NCBI RefSeq assembly: GCF_006547045.1
Contig: NZ_CP041242.1
Span: forward strand, 754,001-818,000
DNA length: 64,000 bases
Origin: Lysobacter alkalisoli
GTDB taxonomy: Bacteria; Pseudomonadota; Gammaproteobacteria; Xanthomonadales; Xanthomonadaceae
Direction of reading: 5' to 3'
Shown here: positions 5,001 through 16,734 of the stretch, piece by piece
How positions within the stretch are numbered: the first letter of the stretch is position 1
Layout of the letters: every line of letters begins with the position of its first letter
Translations under genes and position numbers: made by a program
The notes under the pieces: model-generated
Seen by the model: the letters and a program-made list of their open reading frames with translations, nothing else
What the model was told of the DNA's origin: nothing
Databases searched by the model: none

Positions 5001-5184
5001 GGCCAGCCGTTCGACGATCGGTGTGGTGGTGATCGCCGGCGTGTCGTTCTCGACCCTGCTGTCGCTGTTCGTGGTGCCGGTGTTCTATGTGTTGCTGGCG
5101 CGCTATACCCGCTCGCCGGATGCGGTGAAGAACGAGCTGGAGGCGCTGGAGAAGCAGACGCCGGAAGTGGGTGGGCTGGCCTGA
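2047..5184 (+). CDS. RND multidrug efflux permease (HAE1 family)
   Basis: Proton-driven inner membrane pump of the AcrB/MexB type, 1,045 aa, the usual family length. It starts MNFSELSIKRPVFATVM with the canonical first transmembrane helix. The proton-relay aspartate pair is visible in TM4 (LVVDDAIVVLENIQ), and the second half repeats the fold (GIVMLVGLAAKNGILIVEFA). Two large periplasmic loops follow TM1 and TM7. It is cotranscribed with the adaptor gene upstream. Its last 82 bp overlap, on the opposite strand, the 3' end of cobA. The family exports drugs, dyes, detergents or metabolites; nothing here fixes the substrate. Confidence 0.93.
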   Translation: MNFSELSIKRPVFATVMSLLLIVLGVISFSRLTLRELPAIDPPVVSVDVRYPGASAAVVETRVTQVLEDALSGIEGVETISSRSVNGRSSVTIEFTLDRDIEAAANDVRDKVSGVADRMPDEADPPEVEKADSDSDTVIWLNMSSTTMDTLELSDYAERYVVDRLSSLDGVSTVRVGGQQRYAMRVWLDSDAMAARNITANDVEDALRAENVELPAGRIESSARDFTLRLARSYLAPEDFVGIPLRKGDDGYVVRLGDVARVDLASAERRAYYRSNGEPNIGLGINKTSTANALEVARAARAEAERIQPTLPQGTDIFVAFDSTLFIEAAIDRVYHTLVEAIILVLLVIWLFLGSFRAALVPAVTVPVCLVAAFIPLYAFGFSINLLTLLAVVLCIGLVVDDAIVVLENIQRRTDLGEPKLVAAKRGTKQVAFAVIATTAVLVAVFLPIGFMEGNTGRLFRELSVALAGAVAISAFVALTLSPMMASKLVRPHSEENSNRVHRWITARLDGLGVRYRRFLDHSVEKPWLFGGLMVVAVVAIGLLMRVLPTELAPAEDRGAFFISIVGPEGAGFDYTVDQIQQVEQIMAEQIAGDGNGKRPIQRANTRVPGSWGVSEEMHTGNVIVFLSDWRERDLSTNEVVDHLRSELSQLTGVRAMPRVRTGLVRSGGQPLQMVLGGPNYEELADWRDRILARMDENPNLYGADSDYKETRPQMRVRIDSQRAADLGVSVSAVGRALETMMGSRRVTTFVQDGEEYDVIVQADKPARATPADLEKIQVRARNGELVPLSNLVTLTELAEPGSLNRFNRLRAITISAGLAEGYRLGDAIDWITGIADEELPEYAQIDWKGESREFQKAGSAVILTFAMALLIVYLVLAAQFESFIHPFVIMLTVPLGVLGALLGLIVTGGTLNLFSQIGIVMLVGLAAKNGILIVEFANQLRDAGRSIHEAVVEAAGVRLRPILMTSIATVAGALPLVIAGGPGSASRSTIGVVVIAGVSFSTLLSLFVVPVFYVLLARYTRSPDAVKNELEALEKQTPEVGGLA

Positions 5185-5918
5185 CCTCCCACCCGCGCGA
5201 CATCGGACAGCACGGTACCGACCAGGATCACACCGGGCTGTTGCGGTACGAATTCCGGTGGAGCCTGGGTCAGTGCGGCCAGGGTGGTGAGTCGACGCTG
5301 CTCGCCGGGCTGGCTGGCGGACTGGACGATGGCGACCGGGGTGTCGGCATGCATGTGCATGGCAAGGCACGCAGCCAGCGACTGGATGCGGCGCATGCCC
5401 ATGTAGATGGCGAGCGTGGTGCCGCTGCGGGCGAGCGCGGCCCAGTCGGGCTCGCCGTGGTCGTGGGTGTGGGCGGTGACGAAGGTGACGCCGTGGCAGT
5501 GGTCGCGATGGGTCAGCGACACCCCCAGCGCGGCGGCGGCGGCGAAGGCGGCGCTGATGCCGTTGATGACCCGGACGCGGATGCCGGCGGCCTGCAGGAA
5601 TTCGATCTCCTCGCCGGCGCGGCCGAACAGCAGCGCGTCGCCGCCCTTGACCCGTACCACCCGCAGGCCCTGCAGGGCGTAGCGGCGCATCAGCCGGCAG
5701 ATGAAGTCCTGCGGGGTGGAGCGACAGCCGGCGCGTTTGCCGACACGGATCACCCGCGCTCGGGCAGCGAATTCGACGATGTCCGGATTGACCAGTTCGT
5801 CGACCAGCAGCACTTCGGCCGCCGCCAGTGCCTTGACTGCCTTGAGCGTGAGCAGGTCGAGGTCGCCGGGGCCGGCGGAGAGCAGGGTGACCTCGGGTTT
5901 GGCTTGCATCGCGGACAT
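5103..5918 (-). CDS. cobA: Uroporphyrinogen-III C-methyltransferase
   Basis: Single-domain SUMT, 271 aa, which uses SAM to methylate uroporphyrinogen III to precorrin-2 on the way to siroheme. Siroheme is the cofactor of the NirB nitrite reductase encoded in the same operon. The glycine-rich loop LLSAGPGDLDLLTLKA, the LVDELV segment, VVRVKGGDALLFGR and VINGISAA are all present. ATG 5918 is chosen because GGAG lies eight bases upstream; ATG 5909 and GTG 5927 are alternatives. It is the last gene of the nitrate assimilation operon. The final ~27 residues, rich in serine and phenylalanine, run antisense into the RND pump gene and look like a non-conserved extension. Confidence 0.93.
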   Translation of the reverse strand: MSAMQAKPEVTLLSAGPGDLDLLTLKAVKALAAAEVLLVDELVNPDIVEFAARARVIRVGKRAGCRSTPQDFICRLMRRYALQGLRVVRVKGGDALLFGRAGEEIEFLQAAGIRVRVINGISAAFAAAAALGVSLTHRDHCHGVTFVTAHTHDHGEPDWAALARSGTTLAIYMGMRRIQSLAACLAMHMHADTPVAIVQSASQPGEQRRLTTLAALTQAPPEFVPQQPGVILVGTVLSDVARVGGQASPPTSGVCFSSASSSFFTASGERV

Positions 5919-5942
5919 CAGCGGCACTCCGTTTCAGATGAC

Positions 5943-5996: not shown

Positions 5997-8765
5997 TCAT
6001 GCCGGTTGTGCTTGCCGGGCAAGCCGGGTGAGCTGCGGAATGCAGGAGCCGCAGACGGTGCCGCAGCCCAGTTGTTGTTTGAGTTCGGCGACGCCGGCAC
6101 CCATCGCGACGCACTCGCGGATCGTCGATTCGGCGACCTGGCGGCAGACGCAGACCACCGGGTCGCGGACGACGTCGACGGCCGCAGTGGAGAACGCCGC
6201 CAGCCGCGAGCCCTGCCAGGGGTGGCCTGACAGGACGCGTTGCAGCAATGACCCGAAGACTGCACCGGACCCGGTTTCGGTCCAGAGCAGGCCGTCGATG
6301 AAGCTGGTGTTGTCATCGGCACGCCAGGCCACGCGCTTGAGCAGGCCGCGGCGGGCATCGCGGTACTCGAGGGTGTCGGGGCCGGCGGCGAGATCCAGTG
6401 CATCGTCCAATGCCTGCAGCCATTGCATCGGCATTGGCGCGTCGGCGGCGATGCGCAGCACCAGCCAGGCCGGACCGTCGAATGCGTCCGCTTCGACGGT
6501 ACGTTCGACATGCAGGCCGATGCCCGCATAACCACACGCCTTGAGTAGCGGTTGCACCGCTTTGCGCATCGCCAGCACGTCGCCGCGGCGCGCGGCCTGC
6601 AGGTGCCAGCCGAAACCGGCCTTCTCCACGCGCACCGCGGCGTGCTTCAACTCCGGTTGCTGCGAACGGCTGTCGGTGGCCGGTTGGCTGACCTCGTTGA
6701 TGCCGCCGCTGGACAGGAACTGGCCGCTCCAGTGCATTGCGGCGAATACGGTGCCGGAGCCGACCTCGTCGCTCGGCTCCAGCGGCAGTACCAGCTCGCC
6801 GCGGGCGCTGGCCACGCGCACCAGTTCGCCGGCCTTGAGGCCGCGACGCGCGGCATCGTCGGGATGCATGTGCAGCGACGGTTCGGGGCTGTGGGCGAAC
6901 AATTGCGGTACGCGGCCCGTGCGCGACATGCCGTGCCACTGGTCGCGCAGGCGGCCGGTCAGCAGGCGCAGCGGGTAGCGTGCGGAAATCGGTTCGGCCA
7001 CCGGCCGGAATGGCGTGACATGGAAGCATGCACGGCCGTCGGCGGTGGCGAAGCGGCCGTCGGCATAGCGGCGCGCCTGGCCCTGCCGGCTGCCGCTGGG
7101 GAATGGCCACTGCTGCGGGCCATCGGCCTCCAGGCGCGCATGATCGAGGCCGCCGATGTCGAGGTCGCGGCCGATGGTCAACGCGGTGTGCTCGTCGAAG
7201 ATCTGTGCCGGCGTATCGAAGGCGAACATCGGCCCGGTGCCCGGCCCGGCCAGGCGCGCCTCGATCCGGCGCGCGACCTCGCGCACGATCCACCAGTCAT
7301 GCCGCGCCTGCCCCGGCGCCGGCACCGCCGCGCGCACGCGCGAGATGCGGCGCTCGGAGTTGGTGACGGTGCCATCCTTCTCGCCCCAGGTGGTGGCCGG
7401 CAGCAGCACGTCGGCGTAGGGCACGGTGTCGGTGTCGCGGAAGGCCTCCTGCACGATCACGTACTCGGCGCGCTGCAGGGCGTCGCGCACGCGGGCGATG
7501 TCGGGCATCGAATGCACCGGATTGGTGCAGGCGATCCATACCGCCTTGACCTTGCCGCTGCGCACCGCCTCGAACAGTTCCACCGCCGCCAGTCCGGGGC
7601 GCGGCGACAGGCTGCCCGGGGCCAGTTTCCATAGCTGCTCGACCTCGGCACGGTGGGTGGCGTTGGTGATATCGCGGTGTGCGGCCAGCATGGTCGCCAT
7701 GCCGCCGACCTCGCGCCCGCCCATCGCGTTGGGCTGCCCGGTCAGCGAGAACGGACCGGCACCGGGCCGGCCGAGCTGGCGCGTGGCCAGATGCAGCTGG
7801 ATCAGGGCGAGGTTCTTGTCAGTGCCGTGTGCGGACTGGTTCAGGCCCATGCAGTACAGCGACAGCGTGGCAGGGCTGCGGCCGAACCACTCGGCGGCGG
7901 TGATGAGGTCGGCAGCGGAAATACCGCAAATCTCGGCGGCCATGCGCGGGGTGTAGTCGCGCAGCAGCTGCTTGAGTTCGTCGAAGCCGGTGGTGTGGTG
8001 GGCGATGAAGTCCGCGTCCACCCATCCTTCCCAGATCAGGTGGTGGAGCATGCCGTTGAACAGGGCGACGTCGGTGCCGGGCTGGATGGCCAGGTGCAGG
8101 TCGGCCATTGCCGCGGTATCGGTGCGGCGCGGGTCGATCACGATCCAGCGCACGTCCGGGTCGCGCTCGCGCGCTTCCTCCAGCCGTCGGAACAGCACCG
8201 GATGTGCGTAGGCGGCGTTGCTGCCGGCGAACAACACGGTCTTCGCGTGCTCGAGGTCCTCGTAGCAGGTCGGTGGACCGTCGGCGCCGAACGCGAGCTT
8301 GTAGCCGGTCACCGCGCTGGACATGCACAGCCGCGAGTTGGTGTCGATGTTGTTGGTGCCGATCAGACCCTTGGCCAGTTTGTTGAAGACGTAGTAGTCC
8401 TCGGTCAGCAACTGCCCGGAGATGTAGAAGGCAACCGAGTCCGGCCCGTGCCGCTCGATGATGTCGGCCAGGCGCGCGGACACGGTGTCCAGCGCCAAGC
8501 CCCAGTCGACCGGGCGACGCTGCTCGTGGCGCTGCGCGCGCAGTTCCGGTTGCAGCACGCGGCCGTGCAGGTTGCGCGCGGTTTCGGCCAGGGTGCGGCC
8601 CTTGCTGCACAGGCGGCCGTGGTTGGCCGGGTGTTGCGGATCGCCCGCGACGCCGACGATACGCTCGCCCTCGCTCTCGATCAGCACGCCGCAGCCGACG
8701 CCGCAGTAGCAGCAGGTCGAGCGCGTGACCGTGCGCGCGGAGCGAGCGGGGCCGGCACCATCCAT
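5997..8765 (-). CDS. nasA: Assimilatory nitrate reductase, large subunit
   Basis: Molybdopterin guanine dinucleotide enzyme of 922 aa that reduces nitrate to nitrite in the cytoplasm. The N-terminal 4Fe-4S cluster cysteines are seen in CCYCGVGCGV and GRLCSKGRT. The Mo-bis-MGD core follows (SRLCMSSAVTGYK, WIVIDPRRTDTA) and the molydopterin dinucleotide-binding domain (YPLRLLTGRLRDQWH) lies near residue 640. The C-terminus is an extra BFD-like 2Fe-2S domain (VCVCRQVAEST ... GCGTVCGSC), typical of NasA/NasC/NarB-type assimilatory enzymes. GAGG lies seven bases before the ATG. It is the fifth gene of the operon, after nirD and a REP-bearing spacer. The symbol varies between organisms (nasA, nasC, narB). 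Confidence 0.95.
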   Translation of the reverse strand: MDGAGPARSARTVTRSTCCYCGVGCGVLIESEGERIVGVAGDPQHPANHGRLCSKGRTLAETARNLHGRVLQPELRAQRHEQRRPVDWGLALDTVSARLADIIERHGPDSVAFYISGQLLTEDYYVFNKLAKGLIGTNNIDTNSRLCMSSAVTGYKLAFGADGPPTCYEDLEHAKTVLFAGSNAAYAHPVLFRRLEEARERDPDVRWIVIDPRRTDTAAMADLHLAIQPGTDVALFNGMLHHLIWEGWVDADFIAHHTTGFDELKQLLRDYTPRMAAEICGISAADLITAAEWFGRSPATLSLYCMGLNQSAHGTDKNLALIQLHLATRQLGRPGAGPFSLTGQPNAMGGREVGGMATMLAAHRDITNATHRAEVEQLWKLAPGSLSPRPGLAAVELFEAVRSGKVKAVWIACTNPVHSMPDIARVRDALQRAEYVIVQEAFRDTDTVPYADVLLPATTWGEKDGTVTNSERRISRVRAAVPAPGQARHDWWIVREVARRIEARLAGPGTGPMFAFDTPAQIFDEHTALTIGRDLDIGGLDHARLEADGPQQWPFPSGSRQGQARRYADGRFATADGRACFHVTPFRPVAEPISARYPLRLLTGRLRDQWHGMSRTGRVPQLFAHSPEPSLHMHPDDAARRGLKAGELVRVASARGELVLPLEPSDEVGSGTVFAAMHWSGQFLSSGGINEVSQPATDSRSQQPELKHAAVRVEKAGFGWHLQAARRGDVLAMRKAVQPLLKACGYAGIGLHVERTVEADAFDGPAWLVLRIAADAPMPMQWLQALDDALDLAAGPDTLEYRDARRGLLKRVAWRADDNTSFIDGLLWTETGSGAVFGSLLQRVLSGHPWQGSRLAAFSTAAVDVVRDPVVCVCRQVAESTIRECVAMGAGVAELKQQLGCGTVCGSCIPQLTRLARQAQPA

Positions 8766-8928: not shown

Positions 8929-9297
8929 TCACGCAGTGGTCTCCTCTTCTTCGGCAGGCGTGGCTTCTTCCAGCGCCTCCAGCGGCAACCACACCCGGCC
9001 ATCGACCACCCGCACCGGGAAGCCGCGCGCGCACCCCACGTCCGGCGCACAGGCATTGCCGCTTTCCAGCTCGATGTTCCAGCCATGCAACGGGCAGGTC
9101 ACGGTGTCGCCGGCGACAATTCCCTGCGACAGCGGACCACCTTTGTGGGGGCAGCGATCGGCCAGCGCGAACACGCGATCGGCCGCGGGGCGGAACAGCG
9201 CGATGTCGTCATCACCCATGCGTTCGATCACGCGTGCGCCGAGCACCGGGATGTCGTCGAGCGCGCAGACCTGGATCCACTTTCCTGCATCGCTCAT
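8929..9297 (-). CDS. nirD: Nitrite reductase small subunit
   Basis: Rieske-fold small subunit (122 aa) of NADH-dependent assimilatory nitrite reductase. It has Rieske-like metal ligands (RCPHKGGPLSQG and TCPLHGWNIEL), unlike E. coli NirD, which lost them. It partners NirB and helps pass electrons to the siroheme centre that reduces nitrite to ammonium. The start ATG lies one base after the nirB stop (TGA-G-ATG), and the strong GGAGG needed for it sits inside the end of nirB, so the two are translationally coupled. The C-terminus is a glutamate-rich tail. Confidence 0.93.
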   Translation of the reverse strand: MSDAGKWIQVCALDDIPVLGARVIERMGDDDIALFRPAADRVFALADRCPHKGGPLSQGIVAGDTVTCPLHGWNIELESGNACAPDVGCARGFPVRVVDGRVWLPLEALEEATPAEEEETTA

Positions 9298-9298
9298 C

Positions 9299-11758
9299 TC
9301 AATCCTCCAGCACGGCGGCAATGCGACGGTCCGGGCGCAGCCGCGTGTACTCGCGTGGGGGTTGCGCCTGCCGTACGCGCTCCGCCCAGGGGTCGGGCAG
9401 CCCTTCCAGCGCGTACAGCAGGCGCTCGAACAGCGCGCGGCGATTGCCGGCGTCCTCGATCACCTTCTGCCTGACGTAGTCGAGTCCGACACGGGCGATG
9501 TAGTGCACGGTGCGGTCGAGGTAGTAGGCCTCCTCGCGGTACAGCTGCAGGAAGGCGCCGACCAGCTCCTTCACCTCGTCGCCGGTCTTCACCTTGGCCA
9601 GGAACTGCGCAACCTCGGTCTTGATGCCGCCGTTGCCGCCGACGTGGATCTCCCAGCCCGAATCGACCGCGATGATGCCGACGTCCTTGATCCCCGACTC
9701 GGCGCAGTTGCGCGGACAGCCGGACACCGCCAGCTTGACCTTGTGCGGACTCCACATGTTGGCCAGCATCGTTTCCAGTTCGATGCCCATCTGGGTGCTG
9801 TTCTGGGTGCCGAAGCGGCAGAACTCGCTGCCGACGCAGGTCTTCACCGTGCGGATCGACTTGCCGTAGGCGTGGCCGGACTTCATGCCGAGATCACGCC
9901 AGACGTCGACCAGATCCTCCTTCTTCACCCCGAGCAGGTCGATGCGCTGGCCGCCGGTGACCTTGACCATCGGGATTTCGTACTTGTCGGCGACGTCGGC
10001 GATGCGGCGCAACTCGGACGGGTTGGTCACCCCGCCCTTCATCTGCGGCACCACCGAGAAAGTGCCGTCCTTCTGGATGTTGGCGTGGGCGCGCTCGTTG
10101 ATGAAACGACTCTGCGGATCGTCCGCCGCCTCGCGCGGCCAGGTCGAGAGCATGTAGTAGTTGACCGCCGGGCGGCAGGTCGCGCAGCCGTTGGGCGTGC
10201 GCCAGCCCATCTTCTCGTAGGCCTGCGCATGGGTGACCAGGTGGTGTTCGCGGATCGCCTTGCGCACCTCGCCGTGGCTGAGGTCTGTGCAACCGCACAC
10301 GGCCTTGGTCTTCGGCGTCTCCTGGAAGCTGGAACCGAGGCAGTTCATCAGGATCTGCTCGACCAGTCCGGTGCACGACCCGCAGGAGCTGGCCGCCTTG
10401 GTGTGCTTCTTGACCTCGTCGACGGTAAACAGGCCCTGCTCGCGAACCGCCTTGACGATCGTGCCCTTGCACACGCCATTGCAGCCGCAGACCTCGTCGC
10501 CGTCGGCCATCTTCGCGATGCGGTCCTGGCCGCCGGTGCCGGCGTCGCCGATCGCGTTCTCGCCGAACATCAGCTGGTCGCGGAATTCATCGACCGGGGT
10601 ACCATCCTTGATCAGCCTGAAGTACCAGCCCCCGTCGCCGGTATCGCCGTACAGGCAGGCGCCGACCAGTTTGTCGCCTTGCAGGACGAGCTTCTTGTAC
10701 AGGCCGTCGGACGGGTCCGAAAGCACCACTTCCTCGGTGCCTTCGCCGCCCATGAAGTCTCCGGCCGAGAACAGGTCGATGCCGGTGACCTTGAGCTTAG
10801 TCGAGGCCACCGAACCCTTGTAGATACCGATGCCGAAGGTCGCCAGGTGGTTGGCGCAGACCTTGGCCTGCTCGAACAGCGGCGCGACCAGGCCGTAGGC
10901 GATGCCGCGATGGCTGACGCATTCACCGACCGCGTACACGCGCGGGTCGTAGGTCTGCAAAGTGTCGTTGACGACGATGCCGCGGTTGCAGTGGATGCCG
11001 GCCTCCTGCGCGAGTCGGGTGTTGGGGCGGATGCCGGCGGCCATCACCACCAGGTCGGCCGGCACCTCGTCACCGTCGGAGAAGCGCACCGCGGTGACCT
11101 CGCCGTCCGGGTTGCCGACCAGCTCGGTGGTCGAGGTGTTGAGGCGGAACTTCAGCCCGCGCTCGGTGAGCGACTTCTCCAGCATCTGTCCCGCGGTCGG
11201 GTCGAGCTGGCGTTCGAGCAGCCAGCCGGCCAGGTGGACGACGGTCACGTCCATGCCTCGCAGTTTCAGGCCGTTGGCGGCCTCGAGGCCGAGCAGGCCG
11301 CCGCCGATCACCACCGCACTCTTCTTCACCTGTGCGGTGTCGATCATGGTCCGGGTGTCGTGGATGTCGCGGTAGCTGATCACCCCCTGCAGATCCTTGC
11401 CGGGGACCGGCAGGATGAAAGGTTCGGAACCGGTGGCGACCAGCAGGCGGTCGTACTCGGCCTCGGTGCCGTCGGCGGCGATCACGCGGCGGCGGATGCG
11501 GTCGATCTTCACCACCTCCTTGCCGACGTGCAGGCGGATGCCGTTCTCCTCGTACCAGGACAGCGGGTTGAGGATGATGTCCTTGAACGCCTGCTCGCCG
11601 GCCAGCACCGGCGACAGCAGGATGCGGTTGTAGTTCGGGTGCGGCTCGGCCCCGAACACGGTGATCTCGTACATGTCCGGCTGCAGCTTGAGCAGCTCCT
11701 CAAGCGTGCGGATGCCGGCCATGCCATTGCCGATCACGACGAGCCTGGGCTTCTTCAT
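9299..11758 (-). CDS. nirB: Nitrite reductase large subunit (NADH)
   Basis: Cytoplasmic siroheme nitrite reductase, 819 aa, reducing nitrite to ammonium with NADH. It begins with an FAD-binding domain (LVVIGNGMAGIRTLEELL) and an NAD-binding Rossmann motif (AVVIGGGLLGLEAANGL). Two BFD-like 2Fe-2S domains follow (CGCNGVCKGTI ... CGSCTGLV and CGCTDLSHGEVRKAI ... CATCRP). The C-terminal half carries the siroheme and 4Fe-4S cysteines (TCVGSEFCRFG and SGCPRNCAESGIKD). The start at 11758 is supported by AGAGGAAGAA immediately upstream. It is third in the operon, 43 bp after the acetyltransferase gene. Confidence 0.96.
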   Translation of the reverse strand: MKKPRLVVIGNGMAGIRTLEELLKLQPDMYEITVFGAEPHPNYNRILLSPVLAGEQAFKDIILNPLSWYEENGIRLHVGKEVVKIDRIRRRVIAADGTEAEYDRLLVATGSEPFILPVPGKDLQGVISYRDIHDTRTMIDTAQVKKSAVVIGGGLLGLEAANGLKLRGMDVTVVHLAGWLLERQLDPTAGQMLEKSLTERGLKFRLNTSTTELVGNPDGEVTAVRFSDGDEVPADLVVMAAGIRPNTRLAQEAGIHCNRGIVVNDTLQTYDPRVYAVGECVSHRGIAYGLVAPLFEQAKVCANHLATFGIGIYKGSVASTKLKVTGIDLFSAGDFMGGEGTEEVVLSDPSDGLYKKLVLQGDKLVGACLYGDTGDGGWYFRLIKDGTPVDEFRDQLMFGENAIGDAGTGGQDRIAKMADGDEVCGCNGVCKGTIVKAVREQGLFTVDEVKKHTKAASSCGSCTGLVEQILMNCLGSSFQETPKTKAVCGCTDLSHGEVRKAIREHHLVTHAQAYEKMGWRTPNGCATCRPAVNYYMLSTWPREAADDPQSRFINERAHANIQKDGTFSVVPQMKGGVTNPSELRRIADVADKYEIPMVKVTGGQRIDLLGVKKEDLVDVWRDLGMKSGHAYGKSIRTVKTCVGSEFCRFGTQNSTQMGIELETMLANMWSPHKVKLAVSGCPRNCAESGIKDVGIIAVDSGWEIHVGGNGGIKTEVAQFLAKVKTGDEVKELVGAFLQLYREEAYYLDRTVHYIARVGLDYVRQKVIEDAGNRRALFERLLYALEGLPDPWAERVRQAQPPREYTRLRPDRRIAAVLED

Positions 11759-11801
11759 TTCTTCCTCTGTCTCCAGCCTGGGCAGGTGGGGGCTGCCGGT
11801 T

Positions 11802-12311
11802 TCACCGTGCTTGTTCCCGTGCATGCGGGGCCTGCCTCGCGGGTTGCAGCATCCGCGTCATGAACGCGCTATGCGGATCCTCGGCGTACTGCGCGAACGG
11901 CCCGCAGGTTTGGAATCCGTAGCGTGCGTACAGGGTGCGCGCCGCGCTGAATTCGGGTTGCGTACCGGTCTCCAGGCTCAACTGCCGGTAGCCGCGCCGT
12001 TGCGCTTCCTCCAGCAGGTGGCGCAGCAGCGCCGACGCCACGCCCCGGCGCTGGTGCCGCACCGAGGTGCGCATCGATTTGATCTCGCCATGGCCCCGGT
12101 CGAGCTGCTTGAGGGCGATGCAACCGAGCAGCTCGCCGTCGCTCCATGCGCTCCAGAAAGTGACCTCCGGTGTTCGCAGGCGGTCGAGGTCCAGTGCATG
12201 CACGCTCTCCGGTGGCGAGATCCGGTGCATCTCGTCCAGGTGCTCGCGCAGCAACGCGGCGATCTCAGGGCCGGTCAGCGGGTCGACTTGGATCTGCATG
12301 TCCGTCCTCAT
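11802..12311 (-). CDS. GNAT family N-acetyltransferase
   Basis: Small (169 aa) acetyltransferase of the GNAT fold. The acetyl-CoA pyrophosphate loop RHQRRGVASALL (Q/RxxGxG/A pattern) and the following beta-bulge region (RQLSLETG ... ARTLYARYGF) are clear, with GLxG-like GELLGCIAL before them. Its start overlaps the narK stop by ATGA, and it precedes nirB in the same operon. A GNAT between narK and nirB is found in some proteobacterial nitrate operons, but the substrate is unknown; it might acetylate an amino compound or a protein of this pathway. Confidence 0.85.
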   Translation of the reverse strand: MRTDMQIQVDPLTGPEIAALLREHLDEMHRISPPESVHALDLDRLRTPEVTFWSAWSDGELLGCIALKQLDRGHGEIKSMRTSVRHQRRGVASALLRHLLEEAQRRGYRQLSLETGTQPEFSAARTLYARYGFQTCGPFAQYAEDPHSAFMTRMLQPARQAPHAREQAR

Positions 12312-13516
12312 ACCCGTGCGGTGCCCGTCGCGGCCCAGTGCATGCGCCAGCGCTGCTTGACGCCCACCAGGCACAGCGACGCAGACAGTGCCACGGCGGC
12401 GAACAGCCACAGGCCGATCGAGTAGCTGCCGGACTGCTGCTTGATCACACCCATGCCCGCCGCCAGCACGAAGCCGCCGACGCCACCGGCCATGCCGATC
12501 AGTCCGGTCATCAGGCCGATGTCGCTGCCGAAGCGCTGCGGCACCAGCTGGAACACCGCACCGTTGCCGGCTCCCAGGCACAACAGCGCGACCACGAACA
12601 GCGCCACCGTTGTCGCCGCGCCGCCGGTGCCAAGCGCGGTGGCGGCCACCAGCACGCTCACCGCGACATAGACCATCTGCAACGAGCGTGTGCCGCCGAT
12701 GCGGTCGGCGATCACGCCACCGAGCGGGCGCATGGCCGAACCGGCCAGCACGCAGGCCGCGGTTGCCCAGCCGGCGATCTTGGGCGCGAAGCCGAACTCG
12801 TCATGGAAATAGCCCGGCAGCACGCTGGCGAAGCCGACGAAGCCGCCGAAGGTGATTGCGTAGAAGAACATGAACCACCACGAGTCGCGATTGCCGACCA
12901 GCACGCGGCCGTAGTCGGCCAGGCCCTTGCGCGGCACCTCCACCGGTGCGTCTTTCGCATACAGGAAGAAGATGGCCAGGACCACCGCCAATGGAATGCA
13001 GGCCAGCCCGAATACGTTCTGGTAGCCGAAGGCCGCGGCCAGCGCCGGCGCGAACAGTGCCGCCAGCACGGTGCCGGAATTGCCGGCACCGGCGATGCCG
13101 AGCGCGGTGCCCTGGTGCTCGGGCGGATACCAGCGCGAGGCGAGTGGCAGTGCGACCGCGAACGAGGCACCGGCCACGCCGAGCATCACCCCCAGCAACA
13201 GCACCTGGCCGAAACTGTGCACGCCCAGCGACCACGCCACCAGCAGCGCAATGATCACCATAACCTGCGCCAGTAGACCGGTGGCGCGTGCGCCGATGCG
13301 ATCGGCGAGCAGGCCGAGGAACAATCTCAGCACCGCGCCGCACAGGATCGGCACCGCCACCATCAGCGCGCGTTGCTGGGTATCCAGTGCCAATGCCTGC
13401 GCGATCTGCACCTGCAACGGTCCCAACAGGTACCAGACCATGAAGCTCAGGTCGAAGTAGAGGAACGCCGACAGCAGTGTGGGTGTGTGCCCGGACTGCC
13501 AGAAGGATCGATTCAT
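12308..13516 (-). CDS. narK: Nitrate/nitrite transporter (MFS, NarK/NasA type)
   Basis: Major facilitator of about 402 aa with twelve predicted membrane segments that imports nitrate for assimilation. Family markers include the MFS loop LGLLADRIGARATG and the glycine-rich nitrate signatures GVAGASFAVALPLASRWYPP and LGIAGAGNSGTV, plus GLIGMAGGVGGF. ATG 13516 (MNRSFW) is preferred because AGGAG lies nine bases upstream; ATG 13525 abuts the AGGAG. It is the first gene of the nitrate operon, about 75 bases downstream of an intrinsic terminator-like leader hairpin and ~190 bases from the sigma-54 promoter. Confidence 0.93.
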   Translation of the reverse strand: MNRSFWQSGHTPTLLSAFLYFDLSFMVWYLLGPLQVQIAQALALDTQQRALMVAVPILCGAVLRLFLGLLADRIGARATGLLAQVMVIIALLVAWSLGVHSFGQVLLLGVMLGVAGASFAVALPLASRWYPPEHQGTALGIAGAGNSGTVLAALFAPALAAAFGYQNVFGLACIPLAVVLAIFFLYAKDAPVEVPRKGLADYGRVLVGNRDSWWFMFFYAITFGGFVGFASVLPGYFHDEFGFAPKIAGWATAACVLAGSAMRPLGGVIADRIGGTRSLQMVYVAVSVLVAATALGTGGAATTVALFVVALLCLGAGNGAVFQLVPQRFGSDIGLMTGLIGMAGGVGGFVLAAGMGVIKQQSGSYSIGLWLFAAVALSASLCLVGVKQRWRMHWAATGTARV

Positions 13517-13590
13517 GCACGCCATCTCCTGAAGGTGTCGCCACCGGTTGTGCCGGCAGCGACGCGGTGGGGGGTCGAAGCGAAGCTTCG

Positions 13591-13634
13591 AAACAAAAAC
13601 GGCGCCTTCCGGCTCGCACCGGAAAGACGCCGTT
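13591..13634 (-). terminator. Leader attenuator of the nitrate operon
   Basis: On the minus strand AACGGCG and CTTTCCGG pair with CCGGAAGG and CGCCGTT around a TGCGAG loop, and the stem runs straight into TTTTTGTTT. This is a textbook intrinsic terminator placed between the promoter and narK. NasT (ANTAR) proteins act by blocking such leader terminators. The six-base loop with G at position 4 partly fits the ANTAR target; position 1 is T rather than the expected A. A 7-bp hairpin (TCGAAGC-TTC-GCTTCGA) follows it. Confidence 0.85.
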
Positions 13635-13649
13635 GTCTGCGTGGCAGGA

Positions 13650-13670
13650 CCGTCGTTGGCCCGGCGACGG
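13650..13670 (-). promoter_or_regulatory. Upstream leader hairpin (possible NasT target)
   Basis: CCGTCG and CGACGG form a 6-bp stem with a nine-base loop, sixteen bases before the attenuator. ANTAR target RNAs usually have two adjacent stem-loops, the second overlapping the terminator, so this could be the first. Its loop is larger than the usual six bases. A direct repeat ACAACGGCGT at 13689-13698 and 13627-13636 means the 3' arm of the terminator has an alternative partner early in the transcript. Confidence 0.45.
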
Positions 13671-13714
13671 AAGCTGGTTGTCGCGGTCACGCCGTTGTGC
13701 CCGCATCCCTTGTC

Positions 13715-13731
13715 TAGCAATCAGCGTGCCA
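13715..13731 (-). promoter_or_regulatory. Sigma-54 promoter of the narK-nirBD-nasA-cobA operon
   Basis: The minus strand reads TGGCACGCTGATTGCTA, an exact match to the -24/-12 consensus TGGCAC-N5-TTGCW. It predicts transcription starting near 13704 and nitrogen control through RpoN and an activator of the NtrC class. A perfect 14-bp palindrome at 13749-13762 lies just upstream. Confidence 0.88.
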
Positions 13732-13748
13732 GGATTTGCGTGGCAATC

Positions 13749-13762
13749 GTTTCATATGAAAC
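13749..13762. promoter_or_regulatory. 14-bp palindrome upstream of the sigma-54 promoter
   Basis: GTTTCATATGAAAC is a perfect palindrome centred about 50 bp before the predicted start site. It does not match the classic NtrC box (TGCACC-N5-GGTGCA). It could bind another regulator of nitrogen metabolism; no regulator can be assigned from sequence. Confidence 0.5.
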
Positions 13763-13882
13763 ACGATGCGATTCAAGGCATTGGCGACATCACGCAGCGT
13801 TGCGCAGCGGATGCGCCCCCGCGCAATGCACAACATCGGCGCAGGACTGCATCATGTTTGTGCGGTGCATCAACACCTCGCA

Positions 13883-13951
13883 GTCCGGGCAAGCGAAGCG
13901 CACCCGGGACCGAGTGCTGGATAGCTGGACGTGTTCCGCTTGCCGGGCTAC
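13883..13951. repeat. GTAG-family REP element, diverged copy
   Basis: This begins GTCCGGGCAAGCGAAGC, continues GCACCCGGGACC, and ends CGCTTGCCGGGCTAC, so the two ends are near-mirror images. It matches in sequence and layout the element at 40514-40604. It lies just downstream of nasS and before the nitrate operon promoter, so it may separate the two transcription units. Confidence 0.65.
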
Positions 13952-13973
13952 GACTGATCGGGCCTGCGTGCGG

Positions 13974-15053
13974 TCAGGCCAAGGTGTTGTCATCGTGCGG
14001 AACACTGTTCCGGCTGTCGCTTGCGGGCAGAAGGATGCCAAGCGCGCGCGCAGCCTCCCGATACGTGTCGAGGCGCAGTACATCGCGCAGCCGGTCGTCC
14101 TCATTGGATGCACCGGCTTCGGGCAACCAGCCCCAGCGGCGGAACTGTCGCAGGAACCATCGCGCATCCGACAGCCACGGAAAGTTGGCTTCGCCTCCGG
14201 CATGAAAGCGCATCATCTCGCCGGCCGGTTCGTCCGCACCCGCCAGCAGGCACGCCGCAAGGCGTTCCTCCGGCAGGCCGATCGCGTCGGGTGCCGCCAG
14301 CCAGGCCACCGCATCGCGGCGATGCCCGGGTTCGTCCAGCCAGCGGCAGGCTTCCAGCACGGCCGTGGTCAGGGCCCGCGCGACATCGGGTTGCAGCGCG
14401 GCGAACTCGCGCCGGCAGGCCAGCACCTTTTCCGGATGGCCCGACCAGATGCGTCCGCTGCGGATCACCCGCCGGCCGGCGCCGATCGCTTCGGCCTGCG
14501 CACCCCAGGGTTCGCCGGCGCAGAAGCCGTCCAGTTCGCCGGCCGCCAGCGCCTGCGGCATCTGCGACGGCGGCAGGCTGACCGCTTCGATATCGCGCAT
14601 CGGATCCACGGCTTGCGCGGCCAGCCAGTAGTACAGCCACAGTGCATGCGTGCCGGTCGGGAAGGTCTGCGCCAGCACCGGCCGCCGCGGCAGCGAGCGC
14701 AGCAGGTCGGCCAGTGGTTCGCCATCGACATGCCGGGCTGCCAGCGCAGGCGACAGGGTGATCGCCTGGCCGTTCTGGTTGAGTCCGAGCAGGATCGCCA
14801 GGTCGGCCTGCGGGCCGCCGATGCCAGCCTGCACGCCATGGACCAGCGCCGCCATCGCGTGCACCGCGTCCAGTTCGCCCGACAGCAGGCGGTCGCGGAT
14901 CGCCGCCCACGAGGCCTGCCGGTGCAGGCGCAGGCGGATGCCATGCTTGCGGTCCAGGCCCAGGCGGACGGCCGCGACCAGCGGCGCCGCGTCGATCAGC
15001 GGCACGAAGCCCACATCCAGCATGCATGCCCCGTGGTGGTCGATCACATTCAT
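13974..15053 (-). CDS. nasS: Nitrate-sensing protein NasS
   Basis: A 359-aa protein of the NrtA/NasS family (periplasmic-binding-protein fold) with no signal peptide, as expected for cytoplasmic NasS rather than the transporter subunit NrtA. Family features visible are LDVGFVPLIDAAPLV at the N-terminus, the LSGELDAVHAMAAL segment, FPTGTHALWLYYWLA, and GELDGFCAGEPWGAQA. In known systems NasS binds and holds the ANTAR protein NasT when nitrate is absent and releases it when nitrate binds. It lies 19 bp after nasT on the same strand and upstream of the operon it should control. Confidence 0.9.
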   Translation of the reverse strand: MNVIDHHGACMLDVGFVPLIDAAPLVAAVRLGLDRKHGIRLRLHRQASWAAIRDRLLSGELDAVHAMAALVHGVQAGIGGPQADLAILLGLNQNGQAITLSPALAARHVDGEPLADLLRSLPRRPVLAQTFPTGTHALWLYYWLAAQAVDPMRDIEAVSLPPSQMPQALAAGELDGFCAGEPWGAQAEAIGAGRRVIRSGRIWSGHPEKVLACRREFAALQPDVARALTTAVLEACRWLDEPGHRRDAVAWLAAPDAIGLPEERLAACLLAGADEPAGEMMRFHAGGEANFPWLSDARWFLRQFRRWGWLPEAGASNEDDRLRDVLRLDTYREAARALGILLPASDSRNSVPHDDNTLA

Positions 15054-15072
15054 CGGCTTCGTCCCAGCATGT

Positions 15073-15645
15073 TCACCCCAGCAGATCGGCCATGGCGATG
15101 ATCCGGCGGGCCACGTCGGCCAGCTTCACACCCTGTTTCATCGCCTGCTGGCGCAGGGCCGTGTAGGCCTCCGCTTCGCTCATGCCGCGTTTGTCCATCA
15201 GCAGGCCCTTGGCGCGGTCGACATCCTTGCGATCGCGCAGTTTCCGTTCGAGATCGTCGAGCCGATGGCGGGCATGTGTCTGCTGCTCGAAGCGCGCCAT
15301 CGCCACGCTCAGGATCGGTGCCAGCCGCGACGGCGCCAATCCGTCCACCACGTAGGCGGCGACGCCGGCACCCAGTGCGTCGCGGATCAACTGGTCGTTG
15401 CCGTCGGCACTGAACATCACCACCGGCTTGGGCGCATGCCGGTCGAGCATCGCCAACTGCTCCAGGGTGTCGCGCGAAGGAGAGTCGACGTCGAGGATGA
15501 TCACGTCCGGCTGCAGCTGCTCCACTGCCTTGAGCAGGCCGGCTGCCGCCGCATGCGGCAGCACCTCGTAACCGGCAGCCTCGAGTGCGCCCTTGAGATC
15601 GGCGACCGGCTTGTCGGTATCGTTGACGAGGAGGACGCGCAGCAT
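15073..15645 (-). CDS. nasT: ANTAR antiterminator NasT
   Basis: RNA-binding antiterminator of 190 aa. Residues 1-120 are a response-regulator-like receiver (LRVLLVNDTD, D52 in IILDVDS) and residues ~130-185 the ANTAR domain (LRDRKDVDRAKGLLMDKRGMSEAEAYTALRQQAM), with the conserved alanine and the helical bundle intact. The receiver is atypical: ND replaces the usual acidic pair, which fits NasT proteins that are controlled by NasS binding rather than phosphorylation. Target: the leader of the narK operon (13591-13704), which has the expected terminator. Confidence 0.93.
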   Translation of the reverse strand: MLRVLLVNDTDKPVADLKGALEAAGYEVLPHAAAAGLLKAVEQLQPDVIILDVDSPSRDTLEQLAMLDRHAPKPVVMFSADGNDQLIRDALGAGVAAYVVDGLAPSRLAPILSVAMARFEQQTHARHRLDDLERKLRDRKDVDRAKGLLMDKRGMSEAEAYTALRQQAMKQGVKLADVARRIIAMADLLG

Positions 15646-15691: not shown

Positions 15692-15708
15692 ATGTTGCCA
15701 TGCAACAT
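15692..15708. promoter_or_regulatory. Palindrome between nasT and cysG
   Basis: ATGTTGC-CAT-GCAACAT is a perfect 7-bp inverted repeat in the 99-bp divergent gap between nasT (minus) and cysG (plus). Its position suits an operator shared by the two promoters. The binding protein is unknown. Confidence 0.45.
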
Positions 15709-15744
15709 AAGTCACCGCGAGCCCCTCGCCAACGGGAGCCCCTC

Positions 15745-16734
15745 ATGCCGCTTTACCCGCTGTTCGCCGATCTGCGCGGCCGCGAGGTGCTGGTCGTCGG
15801 CGCTGGCGAAGTCGCCACGCGCAAGGTCGAGGCCCTGCTCCATGCCGGTGCGCGGGTGTGCGTGTGCGCGCCGGAGCTGGGCGCCACGCTGGCACGCTGG
15901 CATGCCGCAGCACGGCTGGAACATCGCCCGCAGGCATTCGACCCGGACTGGCTCGATGCGTTCTGGCTGGTGGTCGCCGCGACCGATGACGGGGTTTTCA
16001 ACGCGCGGCTGGCCGCCGAGGCCGGACAGCGCAAGCGACTGGCCAACATCGTCGACGACGCGGCCTTGTCCACCTTCCAGGTCCCGGCGATCGTCGACCG
16101 CGCGCCACTGCTGGTCGCGATCTCCTCTTCCGGTGCCGCGCCGATGCTGGCCCGCCGGCTGCGTGCGCAGCTGGAAACACAGCTGGATGCGTCATGGGGC
16201 CGGCTCGCAAACCTGTTCGCACGCCATCGCGACGCGATCCGTCAGCGTTTTCCCGAGCTTGCGCAACGCCGTCGCTGGTACGACGCGATCATCGACGGCC
16301 CGGTGCCGGCATTGTTGCGAGCCGACCAGGACGATGCCGCCGAACGGGCGCTGCTGGCCGCACTCGACGCGCCGGTCACTGGCGCCGGCGGCGTGGCCCT
16401 GATCGTTGCCGATGGCGACCCGGAGCAGTTGACCTTGCGCGCGTTGCGGGTGATGAACCAGGCCGACGTATTGTTCCACCATGACGGCATCGACCCGGGG
16501 CTGCTGGCTTTGGCTCGCCGCGATGCACCGCGCGAGCCGTTCGTGAAACCGTTCCTGAAACCGGACGGGTTCCTGGTCGAACGGGTCGTCACGATGGCGG
16601 GGCAGGGGAAGCGGGTGGTGGTGCTGGATACGGCCGACACCGACGCCTCCAGTCGTGCCCTGTCGGCCGGACTCGAAAAGCACGGCGGGGCACTTGAACT
16701 GATCACCTGCGCCGGGGCGGCGCGGTTCCTGTAG
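15745..16734 (+). CDS. cysG: Siroheme synthase with a degenerate C-terminal half
   Basis: The first ~210 residues are a complete precorrin-2 dehydrogenase/ferrochelatase (MPLYPLFADLRGREVLVVG, GAGEVATRKVEALL, VVAATDD, ANIVDDAALSTFQVPA), the enzyme that oxidises precorrin-2 and inserts iron to give siroheme. The rest (~110 residues) resembles only the first part of the methyltransferase domain of CysG (VALIVADGDPEQLTLRALRVMNQADVLF). It lacks the GAGPGD glycine loop, and the KGGDP region is replaced by VLDTADTD. Total length is 329 aa against ~457 in E. coli CysG. The methylation step is therefore probably done by the separate CobA in the neighbouring operon. GGGAG precedes ATG 15745. Confidence 0.85.
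   Translation: MPLYPLFADLRGREVLVVGAGEVATRKVEALLHAGARVCVCAPELGATLARWHAAARLEHRPQAFDPDWLDAFWLVVAATDDGVFNARLAAEAGQRKRLANIVDDAALSTFQVPAIVDRAPLLVAISSSGAAPMLARRLRAQLETQLDASWGRLANLFARHRDAIRQRFPELAQRRRWYDAIIDGPVPALLRADQDDAAERALLAALDAPVTGAGGVALIVADGDPEQLTLRALRVMNQADVLFHHDGIDPGLLALARRDAPREPFVKPFLKPDGFLVERVVTMAGQGKRVVVLDTADTDASSRALSAGLEKHGGALELITCAGAARFL

Follow-up and report, generated by a model that had tools for sequence, protein, structure and literature searches.

A probable three-hexaloop NasT leader behind a predicted sigma-54 promoter in a nitrate-assimilation operon of Lysobacter alkalisoli

How a nitrate-assimilation operon might be made to answer both to nitrogen status and to nitrate itself is the question raised by a locus of Lysobacter alkalisoli, found in a 64-kb stretch of its genome (hereafter the window, meaning the whole stretch of DNA analyzed). 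In this locus, nasT and nasS, encoding an ANTAR antiterminator and a putative nitrate sensor, are followed by a 457-nucleotide (nt) intergenic stretch and then by narK, nirB, nirD, a nasA-like reductase gene and a siroheme methyltransferase gene, all on the minus strand. The intergenic stretch harbors a −24/−12 promoter, NtrC-like sites upstream of it, and three hexaloop hairpins (H1 to H3), the last of which excludes a terminator, and the genome has a single ANTAR protein and a single strong RNA target. Read from this anatomy, the narK–nirBD–nasA–uroporphyrinogen methyltransferase operon is very probably placed under two serial gates, in which H2 and H3 would comprise the standard ANTAR pair, H1 would add an extra NasT hexaloop, and the Rfam family RF03032 (narK RNA) would represent the same element. 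A first-pass annotation of this DNA had already proposed that nitrogen status and nitrate jointly control the operon, a reading well supported at the sequence level by the conserved −24/−12 site, the NtrC-like sites, rpoN, ntrC and the terminator-excluding hairpin; that annotation made no mention of a third hairpin, of NtrC-like sites or of a sub-threshold match to RF03032.

The narK leader, its predicted promoter and its candidate protein partners

Coordinates refer to the whole window, and features of the locus lie on the minus strand unless stated otherwise. The elements between nasS and narK are the following:

13848-13864, minus strand: NtrC-like site, distal (9/12 consensus bases; 21 bp from the proximal site)
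13827-13843, minus strand: NtrC-like site, proximal (10/12 consensus bases)
13716-13731, minus strand: sigma-54 −24/−12 promoter, TGGCACG-CTGA-TTGCT, a perfect match to the consensus TGGCACG-N4-TTGCT
13683-13704, minus strand: H1 hexaloop hairpin, GCGGGCAC[AACGGC]GTGACCGC, with one G.A mismatch, starting 12 nt past TTGC
13647-13662, minus strand: H2 hexaloop hairpin, GGGCC[AACGAC]GGTCC, first of the ANTAR core pair (P1)
13625-13638, minus strand: H3 hexaloop hairpin, AGAC[AACGGC]GTCT, the putative antiterminator (P2), whose loop and 3' stem form the terminator 5' arm
13592-13634, minus strand: intrinsic terminator, an extended GC-rich hairpin with a U tract behind it

All three hairpins match C-[A..G..]-G, that is, a hexaloop with A at position 1 (A1) and G at position 4 (G4) closed by a C:G pair, the determinants established by genetics, by systematic evolution of ligands by exponential enrichment (SELEX) and by work on EutV, according to excerpts of PMC3369931, PMC7496416 and PMC8934654. 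The first-pass annotation had taken the hairpins to depart from the published loop pattern, which is contradicted by this agreement, and its suggestion of a lineage-variant RNA target holds in the sense of three hexaloops in place of two, not in that of a deviant loop. Three such motifs per leader were reached in none of 20,000 dinucleotide shuffles, and the leader was the sole three-motif tile among the 2,242 tiles of the window. The strong intrinsic terminator annotated ahead of narK was recovered as a hairpin of −27.1 kcal/mol, compared with −2.4 kcal/mol for H3, and these two structures are mutually exclusive because the terminator stem begins with the very base that opens the H3 loop. The leader displays the features of an ANTAR two-hairpin target, namely two A1/G4 hexaloops with a closing C:G and a second hairpin that overlaps and excludes the terminator, although it holds three hairpins where the usual description, which may be no strict requirement, has exactly two.

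The consensus −24/−12 promoter, likewise first noted in the earlier annotation, is the only match in 64 kb (0.02 expected), a count equalled in two of 100 shuffles, and it predicts a transcript 5' end at about 13704, at the start of H1. The NtrC-like sites, lying near −128 and −149, were scored against a 12-base consensus that we presume to represent NtrC binding. The genome encodes one RpoN (456 bits) and one NtrC above cut-off (659 bits), with two further NtrC-type proteins scoring below the NtrC cut-off. The −24/−12 consensus with enhancer-like sites upstream corresponds to the anatomy of a sigma-54/NtrC promoter.

The candidate protein partners are encoded immediately upstream, where the first-pass annotation had placed them:

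15073-15645, minus strand: nasT, a receiver plus ANTAR RNA-binding antiterminator of 190 amino acids (Pfam PF03861, PF00072)
13974-15053, minus strand: nasS, an NMT1-like binding protein and putative NrtA-like nitrate sensor (PF13379, 6.4e-79)

The ANTAR domain of NasT was detected at 4.5e-21 (PF03861; 74.8 bits against a cut-off of 27.3) and its receiver domain at 2.5e-12 (PF00072; 47.4 bits against 30.2). In an ANTAR search of the genome at E<=0.01, NasT was the single protein found, and the genome likewise has one strong RNA target (55.3 bits, the next best reaching 20.3). NasT aligned to EutV (6wsh) at 9.3e-19, and a single offset placing all 11 named EutV contacts was used for residue mapping. 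Seven of these 11 RNA contacts are identical, EutV R142, K143, K149, E160, Y164, R168 and M172 corresponding to NasT R139, K140, K146, E157, Y161, R165 and M169; two more are K/R swaps (NasT R144 and K174), and two are changed (N173 to K170 and R175 to G172). The canonical receiver lysine, judged by a motif that we take to be the standard one, is seemingly absent from the NasT segment AYVVDGL, which fits control by NasS and not by phosphorylation. For NasS, the best PDB match was the nitrate-binding protein NrtA (2g29; 2e-51 over 336 residues), with which it has QASW, NGQ, GTH and HPEK in common, presumably the residues that hold the nitrate ligand.

Conservation of the leader in Lysobacteraceae

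NasT was detected in 16 of 149 family genomes (E<=1e-20). We aligned 35 distinct leaders, drawn from relatives among the matches listed and from further family loci. The criterion for inclusion was a terminator overlapped by a hairpin of the H3 type; the conservation of H3 and of the terminator (present in 35/35) thus follows from this selection, while H1 and H2 were not selected for. By this rule, nine of 43 family sources gave no H3/terminator; two of them, L171 and L190, which stay outside the 35, have the full three-loop architecture when read, and in the other seven no narK was present in the fetched stretch. One duplicate was dropped (L169, of L168) and two leaders (L042, L046) were added to reach the 35 rows, whereas L041, L043 and L048-L051 were excluded as copies of, or very near, included leaders. 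No leader was seen in the fetched stretch of L055.

The comparison of family leaders, which the first-pass annotation had proposed, revealed that the hexaloop motif is kept in 33/35 leaders at H1 and in all 35 at H2 and at H3, with covarying H1 and H2 stems. What stays constant at H1 in those 33 leaders is the closing C:G, A1 and G4, whereas the stem sequence varies, as do loop positions 3, 5 and 6. Standard pairs occupied 93.1% of 652 stem cells, falling to 33.5-48.4% when the partners were slid. Changes on both sides were found at 12 of 19 pairs, a number reached by one of 500 shuffles, and were distributed as 6/8 in H1, 5/7 in H2 and 1/4 in H3, where three pairs are invariant; the covariation score exceeded all 500 shuffles. 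In agreement with H3/terminator exclusion, the consensus fold (Alifold; 34 of the 35 rows, L054 omitted) has H1, H2 and H3 before the terminator 3' arm is included, and H1, H2 and the terminator afterward. The loops are spaced at 36-49 nt between H1 and H2 and at 21-26 nt between H2 and H3.

The sigma-54 site is present in 34/35 leaders, and a gap of 12 or 13 nt separates TTGC from H1 in 34/35. The best NtrC-like site scored at least 10/12 in 29 of the 35 family sources, compared with 3.1% of shuffles. By a count made by eye, the best site lay near −140 or −162 in 30 of the 35 sources, and the best two sites fill both positions in 13.

Two natural variants were observed beside this general pattern. 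In L054:4847-4988, from a genome carrying the genus label of the window (G065), the −24/−12 consensus and the H1 motif are both lost, as if promoter and H1 had disappeared together, and H2, H3 and the terminator are kept. In L044:4522-4665, the H1 stem is retained with a loop, ATCCAC, that is devoid of G4, which makes it a natural loop mutant.

Leaders outside the family and Rfam RF03032

Across 91 NasT or RF03032 loci (15 from the family), a hexaloop pair with a terminator-overlapping second member was found in 59, compared with 0/91 after one shuffle per locus. When loci outside the family were scanned with a looser rule, 56 leaders were recovered; 44 of them have a single A1/G4 loop ahead of H3 and 12 have two. 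Under the strict C-[A..G..]-G rule, the 84 loci outside the family yielded 43 distinct leaders, and in 14 of these a third hairpin lies 23-56 nt upstream of H2; the controls gave a mean of 0.33/43 for 15 other letter pairs and 3/43 for a window placed 150 nt further up. According to search labels, the 14 leaders span ten families, or nine without L163, whose third loop is doubtful and maybe in coding sequence. In 14/43 leaders, a sigma-54 site precedes H2 by no more than 130 nt. By eye, the leader of Silvimonas amylolytica (L207), also outside the family, combines a sigma-54 site with three hexaloops, although the strict rule does not count it. In the fetched stretches of Caballeronia and Burkholderia relatives (L198-L206, L208-L212, L216, L218; NasT 57-61% identity), the scan gave no hexaloop pair with a terminator.

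Hexaloop leaders were also seen on other contigs or far from nasT (L251 in G448, L257 in G430, L258 in G275 and L262 in G409), three of which adjoin a nasS- or ANTAR-like match; these genomes may possess second NasS-NasT sets or a wider regulon.

The window leader is the best match of the genome to RF03032, at 22.9 bits and below the cut-off of 43.2; H2 aligns to the RF03032 hairpin and H3 to its 3' part. Other weak Rfam matches (snoZ206, mir-263, IRES_Bip) were taken as chance. The RF03032 consensus opens with GGCaCAgcucUUGCU, by eye a −24/−12 promoter, and continues with CC-AACGGC-GG and then CGAC-AAAGAC-GUCG, again by eye two A1/G4 hexaloops, of which Rfam draws just the first as a hairpin. 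At E<=0.001, RF03032 gave 16 matches in 15 of 369 genomes of the class, and 11 of these 15 have NasT (E<=1e-25), compared with 97/369 overall (p 1.3e-4). Of the other four, two encode a protein with an ANTAR domain in the stretch that holds the match, and two have none. The matches bear the same hexaloops, several with a terminator and a sigma-54 site. GGCA-N8-GC occurs at the model start in eight of the 16 matches, the six best included, and in a ninth (L033) it falls inside the hairpin; this count is a description and not a test, because the model rewards these very letters.

A second model, R1, covers H2 plus H3 and was built from Lysobacteraceae leaders alone. At E<=1e-4 it detected 19 genomes, 18 of them with NasT, and outside the family 16/17 (p 2e-9), the sole exception (G437) looking by eye like a RuBisCO-like coding sequence; at E<=0.001, 23 of 27 genomes have NasT. 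Eight of the 16 RF03032 matches overlap an R1 match (R1 E<=0.05). Two genomes counted with NasT at E<=0.001, G348 and G297, have no clear leader by eye. For two RF03032 matches, G248 and G481, no NasT, NasS, NarK, NirB or NasA match was found in the fetched stretch, which looks coding by eye; these two and G437 are probable false positives, and were nevertheless counted as misses.

Judging by these alignments and co-occurrences, RF03032 appears to be the same element as the NasT leader, that is, sigma-54 promoter DNA joined to a NasT hexaloop pair. A family named after its downstream gene would thereby gain a likely protein partner, NasT, and part of its motif may be promoter DNA. The wider proposal, to which we lean with some reservation, is that a good part of the NasT leaders form a recurrent three-hexaloop class, in which an early loading hairpin precedes the standard pair by 28-43 nt (by 36-49 nt in Lysobacteraceae) and which extends to nine or ten further families, and that RF03032 is a sigma-54 promoter with a NasT hexaloop pair rather than an RNA sensor in its own right. 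If true, such a class would loosen the two-hairpin definition of ANTAR targets, and natural variants would make a recruit-and-hand-over model of ANTAR antitermination testable.

Proposed control of the operon and its alternatives

In the proposed sequence of events, nitrogen limitation would lead NtrC, bound upstream, to activate sigma-54 polymerase at 13716-13731, and the transcript would start at about 13704, right at H1. The second gate is suggested by what is known of the protein family together with the leader anatomy. Without nitrate, NasS is expected to hold NasT inactive, the weak H3 would lose to the terminator, and transcription would stop at about 13592. With nitrate present, NasS would release NasT, which would grip the C-[A..G..]-G hexaloops in the order of their synthesis, from H1 through H2 to H3; by keeping H3 folded, NasT would deprive the terminator of its 5' arm, and polymerase would read into narK. 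H1 is most likely an additional NasT hexaloop serving as an early loading site. Its distance from H2 exceeds that between H2 and H3 by some 15 nt, which makes an added site more likely than a substitute for H2.

A number of findings weigh against this reading. In single-sequence equilibrium folding, H1, H2 and H3 had probabilities of 0.02, 0.39 and 0.54 in an RNA ending at 13622 and of 0.92, 0.01 and 0.004 in one ending at 13612, the latter being no more stable than shuffles (z 0.76), whereas the whole leader was (z −2.78). As folding of the single sequence does not favor the three hairpins, binding or co-transcriptional order must; equilibrium folding of the window sequence alone was set aside as an uninformative guide, with other pairings competing. 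Many aligned rows belong to close Xanthomonas species, and the shuffle control behind the covariation counts ignores relatedness. The H1 motif is lost in two of the 35 leaders (L044, L054), so that H1 is not essential everywhere, and outside the family 29/43 leaders have no third loop by rule. There, a sigma-54 site lies no more than 130 nt from H2 in just two of the 14 leaders with three loops, hence three loops and a sigma-54 start are not coupled outside the family. The distal NtrC-like site (9/12) is not beyond chance on its own, as a best score of 9 occurs in 22% of shuffles. Besides the sub-threshold RF03032 score of the window leader, R1 recovers just 18 of the 97 NasT genomes at E<=1e-4, and at E<=0.05 only 38 of its 77 genomes have NasT, indicating that weak R1 matches are largely noise. 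Finally, narK of Bradyrhizobium diazoefficiens has a predicted NasT hairpin and yet rises in a nasT mutant, as stated in an excerpt of PMC6759348.

Among the alternatives, the one that survives best, which we consider unlikely but worth keeping in sight, is that NasT binds H2 and H3 alone and that H1 is a 5'-terminal stem protecting the mRNA or preventing leader misfolding, its loop being conserved for some other reason. The position of H1 at the RNA 5' end, 12-13 nt past TTGC, would suit such a stem, as would its different spacing and the rarity of the third loop outside the family, and a linker longer by 20 nt abolishes EutV antitermination (PMC8934654, in excerpt). Against such a stem stand the closing C:G, A1 and G4 that H1 retains in 33/35 leaders amid varying stem letters and loop positions, and the recurrence of a third A1/G4 loop in 14/43 leaders beyond the family, where other letter pairs averaged 0.33; most of these third loops have no sigma-54 site in sight, so that no transcript start would lie right before them. 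An additional NasT hexaloop remains the preferred reading of H1.

It is improbable that transcription of the operon begins at the nasT promoter or at a sigma-70 promoter, with the −24/−12 site unused. The 5' end in the window is a prediction from sequence, the consensus site is missing from L054, and outside the family a sigma-54 site precedes H2 in just 14/43 leaders; against this stand the perfect consensus in the window, its presence in 34/35 family leaders at a near-constant distance from H1, and the NtrC-like sites upstream. Least credible, to the point of being nearly negligible, is a base-pairing anti-terminator in which the terminator 3' arm pairs early with the H1 copy of the direct repeat ACAACGGCGT, since this repeat, whose existence the first-pass annotation rightly reported while assigning it that alternative partner role, is simply two of the ANTAR hexaloops of the leader, and although AACGGCG, by eye complementary to part of the 3' arm, occurs at H1 in 27/35 leaders, the exact 10-mer does so in just 10/35, the H1 loops AACGGG, AACGAC, AACGAG, AAAGCC and AATGCC partly break the pairing and keep A1/G4, and the consensus fold is without any H1-terminator pairing.

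Regulation of this double kind, by nitrogen status together with nitrate, is known. Antitermination by NasS-NasT, the dual hexaloop and the part of NtrC in controlling nitrate assimilation have all been described (PMC3795266, PMC5424462, PMC3369931, PMC7496416, PMC8934654). The nas leaders of Paracoccus denitrificans, Azotobacter vinelandii and Pseudomonas involve the same two proteins and a like leader before nitrate-assimilation genes, and NasT binds the nasA leader, in which one hairpin is required (PMC3795266, PMC5424462); the window differs in its three A1/G4 hexaloops and in the NtrC/sigma-54 promoter that immediately precedes its leader, a comparison made with published descriptions of the Paracoccus and Azotobacter leaders. 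The dual-hexaloop RNAs of EutV and NasR (PMC3369931, PMC7496416) have A1, G4, the closing C:G and a second hairpin overlapping the terminator as in the window, whose NasT largely keeps the EutV contact residues, whereas the third hexaloop at the 5' end and NasS as sensor, in place of phosphorylation or a NIT domain, set the window apart. The Klebsiella nasF leader similarly combines Ntr-controlled initiation with nitrate-controlled antitermination (PMC5424462), although its NasR is a one-component NIT-ANTAR sensor, unlike NasS-NasT. RF03032 differs from the window element as drawn by Rfam, with one hairpin and with what reads as promoter DNA included. An extra single hexaloop has been reported in the EutX RNA, and structural work on EutV concluded that a pair of loops is too much for a single dimer, proposing that the dimer loads on the first loop and then passes to the second (PMC8934654); relatives with two or three loops would let such loading and hand-over be examined with simple mutants. 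In one survey (PMC12316311, in excerpt), genes in the ANTAR group account for 66 predicted sigma-54 promoters. Neither three-loop NasT leaders nor an equation of RF03032 with this element turned up in the literature searched, which does not show their absence from print, and no paper there named 'narK RNA' or 'narK motif'.

The genes downstream of the leader are the following:

13526-13530, minus strand: AGGAG ahead of narK
12308-13516, minus strand: narK, nitrate transporter and first gene of the operon (TIGR00886, 270.9 bits, below the cut-off of 311.7; start read from sequence; profile search query 12308-13513, first Met excluded)
9299-11824, minus strand: nirB, nitrite reductase large subunit (TIGR02374, 932.5 bits)
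8929-9321, minus strand: nirD, nitrite reductase small subunit (TIGR02378, 94.4 bits)
5997-8765, minus strand: nasA-like assimilatory nitrate reductase (molybdopterin oxidoreductase with a C-terminal BFD domain)
5103-5927, minus strand: uroporphyrinogen-III C-methyltransferase for siroheme (TIGR01469, 242.1 bits)

For the nasA-like reductase, no listed NCBIfam model scored above its cut-off, the NasC and NasA models falling below theirs. Divergent from nasT, a gene at 15700-16734 on the plus strand encodes the N-terminal part of siroheme synthase with only a partial methyltransferase domain; the methyltransferase that closes the operon (5103-5927) is a separate one.

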